Below, one piece after another: positions 49,456-58,125 of a DNA stretch of 64,000 nucleotides; within the stretch, counting starts at the first letter, position 1; every line of letters begins with the position of its first letter. The notes below the pieces were generated by a model that did not search any database, had not been told where the DNA came from, and worked only from the letters and a program-made list of their open reading frames with translations. This DNA comes from Paracoccaceae bacterium (lineage in GTDB: Bacteria; Pseudomonadota; Alphaproteobacteria; Rhodobacterales; Rhodobacteraceae). The position numbers and the translations under genes were made by a program. The stretch lies in contig WKFK01000011.1 in the NCBI GenBank assembly GCA_014872815.1, positions 248,001 through 312,000 on the forward strand. The letters are read 5' to 3'.

Positions 49456-49920
49456 TTAACTCTTCTCTACACGCAGGATCACGCGTTGCTCAAACGGAGT
49501 GCCGTCCAGTGCGGTGGCATTCATACGGATGTTCCAGTTCCCTGGTGCCAGCTCTTCACGCGCCACATAGGCCTTGCCATCAAACTGAAAGTTTGGCTGC
49601 CGGTCGTCCTTAACATGGGTCGCCCGGCCAAGGACTGCGTCCAGATTAGAAACCTGAACCGGCTTGCCGTTTACATCGGTAATCGACAAGATCAACAACC
49701 CACCTTTGGCCTGAGCGCTTACGTCCCAACCCAATGCTTCTTGGGCGTTGCGCCGCTTGTCAAAGCTCTGACTGGCAACATAAGAGTTCTTCACTTCAAC
49801 GCCCGGGAATGTCGCGACGGCATTCCAAGCCATTGTAAAGTTCACGGCAATAATCACCCCAAATGCTCCGACAAAGATCATCAAGAAGTGTTTACCGGTA
49901 AATTTCCCCTGCGCCATCAC
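49456..49920 (-). CDS. ccoH: cbb3 oxidase assembly protein CcoH (FixH)
   Basis: 154 residues: an N-terminal membrane helix (FLMIFVGAFGVIIAVNFTMA) and a periplasmic beta domain (GWDVSAQAKGGLLILSITD, LAPGNWNIRMNATALDG), matching FixH. It assists assembly and stability of the oxidase. Its start overlaps the ccoG stop by four bases (ATGA), indicating coupling. Confidence 0.95.
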   Translation of the reverse strand: MMAQGKFTGKHFLMIFVGAFGVIIAVNFTMAWNAVATFPGVEVKNSYVASQSFDKRRNAQEALGWDVSAQAKGGLLILSITDVNGKPVQVSNLDAVLGRATHVKDDRQPNFQFDGKAYVAREELAPGNWNIRMNATALDGTPFEQRVILRVEKS

Positions 49921-51356
49921 TGACCCTTTCCATTAAATACGGTGTCTTTGTGCACACGATCGCCATTGCCGGTATCTTCAAACCAGAAACGGAAATCTGT
50001 CAGACTGCCATCAGCGGGGGCCGATCCGGCTGGTGCAATGACATATACTCGTTGGTTCTTCATCTGGTCCGCTGGCACTTCAACGGTTTCATAAGGTGTC
50101 CCCTCAAGCTGTACACGCAGGCTTGGATCCCCTTTGATCGAAATCCGGAACATCCGGTCTTCGCCGTGTTTGTTGCGCAAACGCACTTCGTATGTGTTGC
50201 GGATCGAGCCGTCTGACAGGGTCACAAACGTCGGGTTGCGCACCGGTGCCACTGTGGCTTCGATATCAGAGCGCATGAACAGTGCCACCACAAGGCCAAT
50301 GCCCACAATCGACCATAGCGAGGTGTACATAATGGTGCGCGGGCGGAAGATGTGCTTCCAGATGTTGCGGGGAGGTTGCCCATCACGCTCTCGATCTTCG
50401 TCAGAAAGCGCCAGATAGTCGATCAACCCGCGTGGCTTTCCGATCTTCTCCATGATGTCGTCACAGGCATCAATGCACAGGCCACAGGTGATACACTCCA
50501 TCTGTTGGCCATCGCGAATGTCGATCCCCATCGGGCAAACGTTCACGCAAGCCATACAGTTGATGCAATCGCCATGGGCATCTTCTGGTTCATCCTTGCG
50601 GGCCTTGCCCCGGGGTTCACCACGCCAGTCACGATAGCCGATGGTCAAAGTGTCCTCGTCCATCATCGCAGCCTGAATGCGCGGCCAAGGGCAAGCGTAG
50701 ATACAAATCTGCTCACGCGCGAAGCCACCAAAGAAGAAGGTCGTAAACGTCAGGATAGCAACAGTCGTGTATGCAATCGGATGGGCGTTTCCGGTTACCA
50801 GATCTACGGCCAAGGTTGGCGCATCGGCAAAATAAAACACCCAAGCCCCACCTGTGGCCATGGCAATCAACAGCCAAGTAATCCACTTGGTGACCCGTAG
50901 GCGTGCTTTGCGAAAATCCAGCTTCTTCTGGCGATGCAAACGCAATCGCGCGTTGCGATCCCCTTCGATCCAACGTTCCACCAGTATGAACAAATCTGTC
51001 CAAACGGTTTGCGGGCAGGCATAGCCGCACCAGACCCGCCCCAAGGCGGAGGTAAACAAGAATAGGCCGAGTCCCGCCATGATAAGAAGGCCAGCAACAA
51101 AGTAGAACTCGTGTGGCCAAATCTCGATCATGAAAAAGAAGAAGCGGCGGTTCGCCAGATCAATCAGGACGGCCTGATCAGGGAGGCTCGCACCTCTATC
51201 CCAGCGCAGCATTGGCGTCAGGTAATAGATACCCAGCGCAACCGCCATAATTATCCATTTTAAATTTCGAAACGGCCCGTAAACGCGCTTCGGAAAGATT
51301 GGCTCTCGTGCCTCGTACAGGGACGGTGCAGGACTTTTGCTCACGGAATCACTCAC
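49917..51356 (-). CDS. ccoG: Cytochrome oxidase accessory protein CcoG (FixG/RdxA)
   Basis: Polyferredoxin cupric reductase that delivers Cu(I) for cbb3 oxidase. 479 residues from GTG 51354-51356 (VSDSVSKSPAPSLYEAREP). The longer in-frame start at 51431 is rejected because the FNR box would lie inside the gene. About five membrane helices, 2x[4Fe-4S] motifs (CINCMACVNVCPMG and CITCGLCIDACD, ~230-260) and a C-terminal periplasmic Ig-like domain. The CGYACP in the second helix loop is the other conserved Cys site. First gene of FNR-controlled ccoGHIS. Confidence 0.94.
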   Translation of the reverse strand: MSDSVSKSPAPSLYEAREPIFPKRVYGPFRNLKWIIMAVALGIYYLTPMLRWDRGASLPDQAVLIDLANRRFFFFMIEIWPHEFYFVAGLLIMAGLGLFLFTSALGRVWCGYACPQTVWTDLFILVERWIEGDRNARLRLHRQKKLDFRKARLRVTKWITWLLIAMATGGAWVFYFADAPTLAVDLVTGNAHPIAYTTVAILTFTTFFFGGFAREQICIYACPWPRIQAAMMDEDTLTIGYRDWRGEPRGKARKDEPEDAHGDCINCMACVNVCPMGIDIRDGQQMECITCGLCIDACDDIMEKIGKPRGLIDYLALSDEDRERDGQPPRNIWKHIFRPRTIMYTSLWSIVGIGLVVALFMRSDIEATVAPVRNPTFVTLSDGSIRNTYEVRLRNKHGEDRMFRISIKGDPSLRVQLEGTPYETVEVPADQMKNQRVYVIAPAGSAPADGSLTDFRFWFEDTGNGDRVHKDTVFNGKGQ

Positions 51357-51410
51357 ATATTTTGGAGATGAGATTGCTTGCTCTTGTTCCAGTGATTGGA
51401 CGACAGAACA

Positions 51411-51424
51411 TTGACCTGAGTCAA
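51411..51424 (-). promoter_or_regulatory. FNR/FnrL box upstream of ccoG
   Basis: TTGACCTGAGTCAA is a perfect palindromic FNR-type box (TTGAC-N4-GTCAA), 55 bases upstream of the ccoG GTG. If it acts at -41.5, transcription starts near 51376. The -10 region (AACAAG) is weak, as is common for activated promoters. Confidence 0.88.
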
Positions 51425-51476
51425 ATCTCACATTTGTGACTCACCTTTACACCCGCACCACGCAAACCACCCTGCG

Positions 51477-52472
51477 TCAGAGTAGCTCTGCGCGCATTTG
51501 CGCAGGGGTGCGGCCGGTCCAGTTCTGGAACGCACGATAGAAAGAGTTGGGGTCTCGATAGGCCAACAAATAGGAGATTTCCTCCACGCTCATGTCGGCT
51601 TGGCGCAAGTAATGTAAGGATAAATCTGATCGCGTGTCATCCAAAACGGATTGAAACGTCTGACCTTCCTTGCTGAGGTGACGCTGTAGACTGCGACGGC
51701 TTGTCACAAGCCGATCACTCACGGCATCAACCGACGCCTGTCCCGCCGGAAGCAATTCCAACAACGCATTCCTGACCCGCGTGGCCATTGACTGTGCACG
51801 CTGATGTTCCGCCAATTGTCGTGTCAACTCGCGCTCAAACCCGGCCCACAGCTGTGGATTTTCTGAGATGAGCGGACGGTATGCGTCTTCCCGCGTCAGT
51901 GTCAGCCTGGGCAATGGTGTCACCACAGCCTTTCTGCCGTAATGCCGATCAAACACCGCTTGATCTTCCATCAATTCAGGCACACCCACTTCAACGGGCA
52001 GGAAATCCACACCGGTAAACGTGCGTCCCATTTCCAAGAAATACACCATCTCAAACGCGGCCATACACTTTGGCACATCCAAGTTCGGTTCAGCCACATC
52101 GATTTCAAGTATGAGATGCCTCTCTGTCTCCGAGACAAGTAACTTGATCGGCGCAACAAGCGGTTTGAAAATCGCTTTGCGCTTTAAACCGGTGGCAATA
52201 TTAGGGCTACAAGAGAAGGCAAACGCGGCCGGAATAAAAGGCCCTCGCGCCATTGCTTTGGCCATCTCAATAACCACTTTCGGATCGTCGATTTCATCTG
52301 AAATCGCTTCCCAAAGCGAAAAAAACTGTTGGGCAGTCACGCCTTTGTTCTCGGTATCAAACAAGTCCACCGGCATCCCTGCTCGTTTCAGGACCCGCTC
52401 AGGCGAAATTCCGCAGGATCGCAAAAGACCCGCTGTGGACTTATGAATTGGATACCGGACCTGCTTTTGCAT
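51477..52472 (-). CDS. AraC-family transcriptional regulator (OruR-like layout)
   Basis: 331 residues from ATG 52470-52472, with GGAGG five bases upstream. The N-terminal arabinose-binding-like domain (about 20-200; LLRSCGISPERVLKRAGMP, the type found in OruR/ArgR-like regulators) is followed by a C-terminal AraC helix-turn-helix pair (DAVSDRLVTSRRSLQRHLSK and SVEEISYLLAYRDPNSFYRA). It sits between ccoG and ccoP, which is unusual for a cbb3 cluster. An FNR box and a highly structured leader lie upstream, so it is probably induced at low oxygen. Targets and ligand unknown. Confidence 0.88.
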   Translation of the reverse strand: MQKQVRYPIHKSTAGLLRSCGISPERVLKRAGMPVDLFDTENKGVTAQQFFSLWEAISDEIDDPKVVIEMAKAMARGPFIPAAFAFSCSPNIATGLKRKAIFKPLVAPIKLLVSETERHLILEIDVAEPNLDVPKCMAAFEMVYFLEMGRTFTGVDFLPVEVGVPELMEDQAVFDRHYGRKAVVTPLPRLTLTREDAYRPLISENPQLWAGFERELTRQLAEHQRAQSMATRVRNALLELLPAGQASVDAVSDRLVTSRRSLQRHLSKEGQTFQSVLDDTRSDLSLHYLRQADMSVEEISYLLAYRDPNSFYRAFQNWTGRTPAQMRAELL

Positions 52473-52646
52473 ATGTGCCTCCATCTGGAGACAAATACAT
52501 AGAGGCATTGGCGCAGTTCGCCAACCAAATGGCACAATTTGCAAGTGATTTGAGAAATTGTGGGTGCCAATCTTTCCAGGAAACGCGCGAACAGGACGGA
52601 AAGATCGACACCCAATGGACAGCTCCGGTTGCGGCGTGCTGCCCTT
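52473..52646 (-). ncRNA. Candidate structured RNA leader of the AraC gene (three hairpins)
   Basis: Minus-strand RNA from the predicted start near 52646 can form three consecutive hairpins. (1) 52561-52614: a 17-bp stem with 20-base loop, arms TGGGTGTCGATCTTTCC and GGAAAGATTGGCACCCA; its only two irregular pairs are U-G and G-U in the minus-strand RNA and would be mismatches in plus-strand RNA. (2) 52534-52561: ACAATTT/AAATTGT. (3) 52508-52524: TTGGCG, AACTG, CGCCAA. A GGAGG ribosome-binding site follows. It has no T-run, so it is a leader more likely than a separate sRNA. Matches no family I recognise. Confidence 0.5.
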
Positions 52647-52652
52647 GAGACT

Positions 52653-52694
52653 GTTCTACCAAGGGACGTCGACCAAAAACTTGATCTTGGTCAA
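52653..52694 (-). promoter_or_regulatory. FNR/FnrL box and class II promoter reading toward the AraC gene
   Basis: TTGATCTTGGTCAA (52681-52694) is an FNR box differing by one base from the ccoN and hemN boxes. On the minus strand a -10-like TAGAAC lies at 52653-52658, placing the box centre close to -41.5 from a start near 52646, the classic activator position. On the plus strand there is no -10 and the ccoP terminator follows at once, so the box must serve the minus strand. Confidence 0.78.
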
Positions 52695-52721: not shown

Positions 52722-52760
52722 ACAAAAAAAAGACCGCCCCGATTTCCCGGAGCGGTCTGT
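52722..52760 (-). terminator. Rho-independent terminator of ccoNOQP
   Basis: Minus strand: AGACCGCTCCGGG / the matching CCCGATTT side giving stem AGACCGC-CCG, then GCGGTCT followed by TTTTTTTTGTG. Eight Ts after a strong stem, about 20 bases downstream of the ccoP stop. It insulates the AraC promoter region from the oxidase operon. Confidence 0.93.
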
Positions 52761-52779: not shown

Positions 52780-53646
52780 TTATTCGCCGCCACCCAATTG
52801 GTGCACATAGGCAGAAACCGCACGCACCTGTGCTTCGGTCAGGCGATTGCCCCAAGATGGCATCACACCAAAGCGGCTGTAGGTGACTGTCTCTTTGATG
52901 GAGGCATAGTCCCCACCATAGAGCCAGATCGCATCTGCCAAGTTTGGCGCGCCTTGAGAGCGATCGCCAGTGCCGTCGTCCATGTGGCAAGAGGAGCATT
53001 CGTCCGCAAAGACCTCAGCCCCGGCCGCAACCAAAGAGGCGTCTTGCGGTTCGCCAGACAGCGACATGACAAAGTTCACAACCGCGTCGATCTGCGCATC
53101 TTCGAGGTAGTCATCCCCAAAGGCTGGCATCTCGGAATACCGCGCATCGTCGTCTTCCTCGTTGCGGATACCATGCTTGATGGTCAGGTAGATGTTTTCA
53201 ATGTCACCTCCCCAGAGCCAATCATTGTCCAGCAGGTTGGGATAGCCAACCGCGCCGGCTGCACCGGAACCGTGACACTGAGCACACCAGGTTTTGAACA
53301 CCGCGTCGCCAGCAGACACCGCATACGGACCCAATTCCGGATCTGTGGTGATCTGTGTCAGCTCAGCTGCTTCCAGCTTGGCATTGATCGGCGCAAGCTT
53401 GTCTTCCGCCGCTTGGATTTCGGCCACCACGTCACCACGGGTTGACCAACCAAGTACACCAGCGGTTGCCCCCTTGATGCCAGGCCAGGCTGGATAGGCA
53501 ATGGTATAGCCGATGCCCCAGATGATCGTGGCGTAGAACACCCACAGCCACCAACGCGGCATCGGGTTGTCAAATTCTTCGATCCCGTCCCAAACGTGAC
53601 CTGTGGTGTTTGGATCGTTGTCGAATTTTTTCGATGGCTTGCTCAT
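52780..53646 (-). CDS. ccoP: cbb3 cytochrome c oxidase subunit III (dihaem)
   Basis: Membrane-anchored dihaem c protein that receives electrons for the catalytic subunit. 288 residues. Membrane helix about 32-50 ([20 protein letters not shown]); haem c sites CAQCH (121-125) and CSSCH (217-221), with axial Met candidates in [10 protein letters not shown] and GVMPSWG. Starts [11 protein letters not shown], overlapping the ccoQ stop by four bases. Last gene of ccoNOQP. Confidence 0.97.
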
Positions 53647-57351: not shown

Positions 57352-58092
57352 TTAAGCCATCATTCCGCCATCAGAATCGTCGCCGGCCTCATCAAGCAAG
57401 CGCTCAAAACTTGGTACAGTCACATGCCGCTTGCCTTCCAACTGGATCACCCCGTCACGTTTCAACGCTGACATCTGGCGGCTTACCGTTTCCAAAGTCA
57501 GGCCGAGATAGTCCGCCATCGCCTCACGGGTCAGCGGCAAATCAAACACAATCTTTCCGCCCACGCCCTCCAGCTTCAACGACGCATCGCGGCGCCCAAT
57601 AATGGACAGCAAGCTGGCGATTTTTTCGCGCGCGGTTTTACGCCCCAAAACCAGCATCCATTCACGCGCCGCATCAAGTTCATCCAATGTCATTTCAAGC
57701 AACCGTTGAGCGACATGTGGTGTCTCCAGCATCATGCTCTCAAACGGTTTGCGCCGGAAGCAGCACATCACCAGATCCGTGGTCGCCACAACGTCATAAG
57801 ACGCGGTTTCCCGACCTGGGCGACCAACAAAGTCGCTCGGCAACAAAAGCCCCACCATCTGCGTGCGCCCATCTTCCATGGTTTGCGTGAGCGAGGCGAT
57901 GCCGGACACCACCGAGCCGACAAATTCCATGCGATCTCCGGACCAGATCACCGTCTGACCGGCTTCAAAACTCCGATAGTATTTGATGCCCTCAAGTGTC
58001 TCAAGTTCATCCGTATCACACCGCGCGCACACGGCGCGATGCTTAATTGGGCAGCTATCGCAGCCGACTGTTAAGTCCAATGTCTCGTTCAT
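57352..58092 (-). CDS. fnrL: FNR-type oxygen-sensing regulator FnrL
   Basis: 246 residues from ATG 58090-58092 (MNETLDLTVGCDSCP). N-terminal cluster cysteines Cys11, Cys14, Cys22 and Cys25, with Cys110/111 for the fourth ligand, can hold an oxygen-labile [4Fe-4S]. cNMP-binding-like barrel (GQTVIWSGDRMEFVGSVVSG). The C-terminal Crp helix-turn-helix has LTLETVSRQM, whose Glu and Ser-Arg read TTGAT half-sites, matching the boxes in this window. The FNR box at 58112-58125 is only 20 bases from its start, so FnrL probably represses itself while activating divergent hemN. Confidence 0.96.
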   Translation of the reverse strand: MNETLDLTVGCDSCPIKHRAVCARCDTDELETLEGIKYYRSFEAGQTVIWSGDRMEFVGSVVSGIASLTQTMEDGRTQMVGLLLPSDFVGRPGRETASYDVVATTDLVMCCFRRKPFESMMLETPHVAQRLLEMTLDELDAAREWMLVLGRKTAREKIASLLSIIGRRDASLKLEGVGGKIVFDLPLTREAMADYLGLTLETVSRQMSALKRDGVIQLEGKRHVTVPSFERLLDEAGDDSDGGMMA

Positions 58093-58111
58093 CGCCTGTT
58101 CATACCTAGAC

Positions 58112-58125
58112 TTGATCTGGGTCAA
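58112..58125. promoter_or_regulatory. FNR/FnrL box between fnrL and hemN
   Basis: TTGATCTGGGTCAA. Toward hemN it is followed by a -10-like CATCTAT (58142-58148). Toward fnrL it is within 20 bases of the start codon, where it would block polymerase. Confidence 0.92.

Follow-up and report, generated by a model that had tools for sequence, protein, structure and literature searches.

A conserved hairpin encoded between ccoP and ccoG in a Paracoccaceae bacterium is, in our reading (probability about 0.65), a small RNA of the HRC-8-4 type controlled by FnrL, rather than a leader of the araC-type regulator gene that follows it. The window, that is, the whole stretch of 64,000 nucleotides analysed here, contains the following elements, given in the order in which they are met on the minus strand:

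57352..58125, minus strand: fnrL, the presumed activator (NF045989 equivalog, 459 bits, cut-off 300)
52780..53646, minus strand: ccoP, cbb3 oxidase subunit III (TIGR00782 equivalog, 410 bits)
52731..52758, minus strand: terminator-like site 3' of ccoP, 12 pairs and a T-rich tail (1 found versus 0.5 in shuffled sequences)
52681..52694, minus strand: FNR/FnrL box TTGACCAAGATCAA (the plus strand reads TTGATCTTGGTCAA), retained by all 17 loci of the same genus
52653..52658, minus strand: -10 element TAGAAC at class II distance, with a predicted start at about 52646 (same-genus comparison)
52617..52644, minus strand: 5' hairpin GGGCAGC/GCUGUCC, whose sequence differs outside the closest relatives
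52561..52614, minus strand: conserved large hairpin, 17-pair stem and 20-nt loop, fitting the HRC-8-4 description (fold and comparison)
52579..52594, minus strand: loop core CUGUUCGCGCGUUUCC, 16 nt, the proposed pairing region, near-invariant in 104 distinct loci
52530..52544, minus strand: AraC-type direct repeat 1, TTGCAAATTGTGCCA (pair with a 21-bp spacing found in 20 of the 23 araC loci)
52509..52523, minus strand: AraC-type direct repeat 2, TGGCGAACTGCGCCA, partner of repeat 1
51477..52472, minus strand: araC-type regulator with Arabinose_bd and HTH_18 domain matches; no NCBIfam equivalog at cut-off in the profile search
51411..51424, minus strand: FNR-like box TTGACTCAGGTCAA at the front of ccoG, located by eye
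49917..51431, minus strand: ccoG, open reading frame as listed (TIGR02745 equivalog, 552 bits)

FNR boxes were defined by the pattern TTG[AG]N6[TC]CAA. The box and class II -10 element upstream of the hairpin, already pointed out in a preliminary description of this region, were indeed present, and the comparison with the 17 loci of the same genus revealed that the TA found at a fixed spacing behind the box had kept its T in 15 of them and its A, the second position of the -10, in all 17, while the two expected start positions were occupied by an A in 13 and 14 of the loci, respectively. Since ccoP is followed by an intrinsic terminator-like site of its own, the FNR promoter most likely begins a separate transcript. 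Because the FNR-like box falls inside the ccoG reading frame as listed, the gene probably starts further in.

The 222-nt stretch running from the FNR box to araC showed a folding energy of -82 kcal/mol, compared to -62.4 (sd 4.3) kcal/mol for shuffled sequences (z -4.5; none of 200 shuffles as good). The three-hairpin architecture of the leader previously proposed was not conserved: conservation was apparent for the large hairpin only, and the small one at about 52560-52535, which overlaps an AraC-type direct repeat, had no counterpart in the near relatives L004 and L005 (compared by eye, unfolded). Two of the 17 pairs of the large hairpin are, as described, U-G and G-U wobbles in the minus-strand RNA only. 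The selection on RNA structure deduced from that pattern was corroborated by the comparison of 104 distinct loci, in which all 12 modelled stem pairs covaried, with both sides changed and pairing kept, and 93.5% of the stem cells were paired. Cells with a double change amounted to 260, versus 72 in shuffles (none of 500 as good) and 24-140 when the strands were slid against each other; double-sided changes at 12 out of 12 pairs argue for selection acting on the RNA structure. The 104 loci derived from at least 169 core matches, after discarding 58 without cco or FNR context and 7 duplicate hairpins; among the matches listed in a scan of the whole collection, those 58 formed at most 11 of 14 pairs. 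An Rfam 15 scan, suggested in the preliminary description, found no family at gathering score in the window. The best weak match in the leader was Cyano-2 (23 bits versus a cut-off of 40), which was taken as chance.

The loop core CUGUUCGCGCGUUUCC was nearly invariant over the 104 loci, an invariance which is partly a selection effect because 89 of them had been found by searching for this very core; the 15 loci found through araC carry it as well. In 40 loci hand-picked from the covariance-search hits, mostly absent from the loop-region search, the first ten loop bases were the most constant and GUUUCC was variable, and the first 10 nt of the core were retained in the most diverged copies read. 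Two of these diverged copies (L249 and L250) have kept CUGUUCGCGC and lost GUUUCC, a pattern hinting that the 5' half of the loop serves a second target or function. According to RNAfold, six bases of the loop core are only about half unpaired, and the loop contains the self-complementary CGCGCG, a conceivable site for a kissing dimer.

By taxon, place and architecture, compared by description, the hairpin appears to belong to HRC-8-4, a motif reported in 2021 with 160 representatives, all of them in Rhodobacterales and mostly located between ccoNOQP and ccoGHIS (PMC8632094). The section of that paper devoted to HRC-8-4 describes a terminator-like stem with a conserved tip, 'generally' followed by a U-run, names hvrB as the commonest gene inserted downstream, mentions further cases off the cco genes, beside hvrB, and proposes a riboswitch or a binding site for HvrB. 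Our hairpin shares the place (in the ccoP-ccoG interval or next to hvrB) and the strong stem with conserved tip nucleotides, whereas the copy in the window has no U-run after the stem. Thus, the layout that had been regarded as unfamiliar was in part already published, namely the hairpin between the two cco operons, where hvrB, and not araC, is the most frequent insert. FNR promoters, araC and petB are all unmentioned in the HRC-8-4 section. The literature searched contained HRC-8-4 by name only in PMC8632094, and searches on cco- or FnrL-linked sRNAs returned no description of a function for the hairpin RNA. No transcript of the hairpin was found in that literature, the text of a Ruegeria sRNA paper having no match for cco or cbb3. 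Against this literature, the pattern set out below, in which the hairpin either follows ccoP or carries its own FNR box, appears to be new here. PMC8632094 also reports uORFC-8-2, a conserved leader containing cysteine codons that precedes cysS in Rhodobacterales.

Among 295 sampled genomes of the family, the 22-nt loop region was detected in 85 at up to 2 mismatches, a covariance model found the motif in 139, and the N-terminal domain of ccoP was present in 268. Genomes were called motif-positive or motif-negative from that one covariance search with strict filters. The genome of the window has a single copy at up to 3 mismatches. Tandem copies were observed elsewhere: L078 and L111 harbour two hairpins 91 nt apart behind ccoP, and three copies with a spacing of about 91 nt occupy G250:C42:10827-11068.

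The strongest clue to the role of the putative RNA is, in our view, the relation between its position and the FNR box. The hairpin lies within 120 nt behind ccoP in 58 loci, and only one of these has an FNR-like match, TTGGTGGCGGTCAA, which falls inside ccoP and is chance-like. When the hairpin is located elsewhere, an FNR box was found 60-200 nt upstream in 41 out of 44 loci (Fisher p 9e-24), these 44 having been chosen by cco linkage alone, with two of the 104, admitted via FNR box plus stem, left out. The three exceptions are the second tandem copies of L078 and L111, and L165, a locus truncated 128 nt upstream of the core. The non-duplicate loci among the 40 hand-picked covariance hits repeated the rule, with an FNR box in none of 25 behind ccoP versus 6 of 7 elsewhere, the exception (L237) being located 138 nt behind ccoP. 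Selection thus seems to hold the RNA under FnrL irrespective of its neighbours. In L116 (Shimia thalassica) the hairpin is placed directly behind ccoP, hvrB is next and no FNR box lies between them; compared with the window, whose genus is presumably Shimia as well, both arrangements seem to be present in one genus, where the move could be dated.

A cis-acting 3'-terminal element of the cco mRNA, with a loop bound by an RNA-binding protein or a ribonuclease and an effect on ccoNOQP stability or termination, would fit the 58 of 104 loci lying within 120 nt of the ccoP end, as well as the T-rich tail (5 or more T within 8 nt, shortly behind the stem) found in 46 of the 104 loci versus 45 of 311 control windows, and the conserved 16-nt loop could serve as a protein site. 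We nevertheless consider this reading unlikely, given that an own FNR box, as retained by the detached copies, would be pointless for a cis element of the cco mRNA, and that in the window a separate terminator-like site stands between ccoP and the hairpin. The idea of the HRC-8-4 authors, a terminator-embedded riboswitch or a protein-controlled attenuator of the downstream gene, perhaps bound by HvrB, draws on the terminator-like architecture and the conserved tip, and is in line with hvrB being next in 24 of the 104 loci. It fits poorly, however, with the variety of the next recognised gene (one of five query proteins within 1,000 nt), which was ccoG in 43 loci, hvrB in those 24, araC in 15, a convergent gene in 9 (coding for DUF2270 in 7 and an RTX-repeat protein in 2) and none recognised in 11, the locus ending in the remaining 2. 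Convergent neighbours leave nothing to attenuate: in L177, for instance, the motif stands 1,291 nt away from ccoP, preceded by an FNR box at -89 and followed by a convergent gene for DUF2270. A convergent gene being beyond the reach of leader control, these cases favour a trans-acting RNA over an attenuator. Moreover, ccoG lies no more than 500 nt away in 40 loci, and 37 of these show an FNR box in the 400 nt that follow the hairpin; in 30 cases the box precedes the point where the ccoG match begins. This indicates that ccoG is often under its own promoter. Attenuation of the downstream gene is, on this evidence, improbable.

The preliminary description had also considered that the hairpin could serve as an FnrL-driven leader attenuating araC. 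In the window the FnrL promoter, the hairpin and araC do follow one another on one strand, and the lack of a U-run makes read-through into araC possible. Nevertheless, araC is the next gene in only 15 of the 104 loci, all belonging to the genus of the window, a T-run follows the hairpin in three loci of that genus (L015-L017), and araC has direct repeats of its own. Matches to the araC-type protein were obtained in 58 of 100 relatives (E 0.001). Of the 23 best matching loci, which were read, 17, all from the same genus as the window, have ccoG after araC, with ccoP upstream within the fetched stretch in 15, and all 17 have kept the FNR box and the same hairpin loop while the stem sequence has changed. 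The other six showed no cco gene and no such hairpin in the fetched stretch. Direct repeats TTGC..ATTGCGCCA, 21 bp apart, were present in all six of these and in 14 of the 17 cco-linked loci; their preservation away from cco genes suggests that they belong to the control of araC itself. The pair is most simply a predicted AraC operator, which would explain the lower part of the proposed leader. The araC attenuator consequently lost ground and is, to our mind, the least probable of the readings weighed here, and the comparative evidence favoured the other possibility that had been raised, the precursor of a putative oxygen-responsive sRNA. In L021, one of the loci without cco genes, the araC orthologue is divergent from a reading frame that by eye resembles the small subunit of a (2Fe-2S) oxidoreductase, and the upstream regions of L019, L020, L022 and L023 look similar by eye. 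The original partner of the regulator may be such a (2Fe-2S)-type enzyme rather than the cbb3 oxidase.

For the FnrL-controlled small RNA, we infer transcription, processing, pairing and an effect of the pairing along the following lines. In many species the hairpin would be made as the 3' end of the FnrL-driven ccoNOQP mRNA; where it is detached from ccoP, as in the window, a separate class II FnrL promoter would drive its transcription. A largely single-stranded 16-nt loop core, displayed by the stem, would pair in trans with mRNAs; the petA-petB junction of the bc1 operon, at the petB Shine-Dalgarno, is the best of the predicted targets. At low oxygen, petB(C) would be lowered while the cbb3 oxidase is induced.

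Complementarity to the petB Shine-Dalgarno region, AGGARRCGCG...AUG, resides in the 3' half of the loop. For the genome of the window, the predicted duplex between the loop and AGGAGACGCGCGA-AUG at the start of petB has 15 pairs, including two G-U, and an energy of -26.6 kcal/mol, and it spans both the Shine-Dalgarno and the start codon. AGGARRCGCG was found directly before petB in 25 of the 295 genomes, corresponding to 24 of 139 motif-positive versus 1 of 156 motif-negative ones (p 1e-7; cross-tabulation made by eye). In 40 motif-positive and 40 motif-negative genomes, chosen non-randomly from the search lists, the strict GGARRCGCG preceded petB in 13 and none, respectively, and among the petB genes with AGGARR the strict site was present in 13 of 21 versus 0 of 16. 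The same site before any ATG gave 163 matches in 14 motif-positive and 134 in 14 motif-negative genomes, some ten per genome; being about equal in both groups, it indicates that base composition does not explain the enrichment at petB. Most motif-positive genomes (115 of 139), among them the same-genus G004, are without the strict petB site. The energy of the loop-petB duplex did not differ significantly between motif-positive and motif-negative genomes (80 genomes, p 0.08), duplexes of -20 kcal/mol or lower being found in 13 of 40 versus 3 of 40. On a petB tree of 46 genomes, most of whose branches are weak, the site was scattered (13 changes). The group having both site and motif required 14 changes, at least 4 of them forced by the starred branches, and a value as low was reached in 161 of 500 shuffles; the three genome classes taken jointly showed some clustering (10 of 200 shuffles were as low), and an independent-pairs test of motif versus site had just 3 usable pairs and was powerless.

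Searching the window for complementarity to the loop with up to 3 mismatches returned the motif itself only. As for the 5' half of the loop, matches to CGCGAACAGGAN{2,10}ATG occurred in 201 of the 295 genomes, and the 27 loci read out of 30 fetched showed no recurring target: 9 had a reading frame of at least 80 aa, with one gene appearing twice. Among 30 motif-positive loci with the petB-type site, petB (6) alone recurred, the 14 genomes involved having been preselected for the petB site. Taken together, petB is a possible genuine target of the loop, with the odds leaning slightly against it. In Dinoroseobacter shibae the repression of petC/B is FnrL-dependent, and genes for NADH dehydrogenase, succinate dehydrogenase and ATP synthase are likewise repressed (PMC5398030), so petB is not singled out. 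Furthermore, bc1 feeds the cbb3 oxidase, and the benefit of repressing petB is not obvious. The complete scheme, in which HRC-8-4 would be a Rhodobacteraceae sRNA responding to oxygen, held under FnrL control at the ccoNOQP 3' end or by its own promoter, shifting the respiratory chain through pairing of its loop with the petB ribosome-binding site and explaining the petC/B repression of D. shibae, is accordingly put forward more tentatively than its petB component.

Several known systems resemble parts of this scheme. FnrS of E. coli is an FNR-activated sRNA that represses its targets at low oxygen, and it has an Rfam entry. The hairpin shares with it, at the sequence level, the FNR box and the class II -10, but differs in genomic place and in the proposed pairing through the loop; homology was not indicated, as the Rfam scan gave no gathering match and FnrS was absent from its 10 weak matches. 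In Rhodobacter sphaeroides, the promoter regions of the sRNAs RSs0019 and RSs2461 are bound by FnrL according to PMC4263372, which also names FnrS; RSs0019 is encoded on chromosome 2, whereas ccoNOQP is on chromosome 1. NrrF of Neisseria meningitidis represses the petABC operon by base pairing (PMC5586341), although it is controlled by Fur and pairs with the petA 5' UTR, instead of the petB Shine-Dalgarno proposed here. The R. sphaeroides sRNAs SorX, PcrX, CcsR1-4 and UdsC (PMC8625941, PMC6238624) are likewise contained within mRNA 3' UTRs, and the tandem hairpins of L078, L111 and G250 recall the multi-copy CcsR RNAs. The text of PMC8625941 had no match for cytochrome or for 0693/0692, the numbers of ccoP and rdxB in PMC4263372.

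With petB as a specific and falsifiable proposal for its target, a widespread RNA motif of the HRC-8-4 type gains a testable role, in which a single RNA would couple the induction of the high-affinity oxidase to another part of the respiratory chain. If true, a large group of marine and phototrophic bacteria would possess an additional, FnrS-like layer of oxygen control, and the hairpin would provide a clear case of an sRNA that shifts between an mRNA 3' UTR and a dedicated promoter while its regulator is retained.
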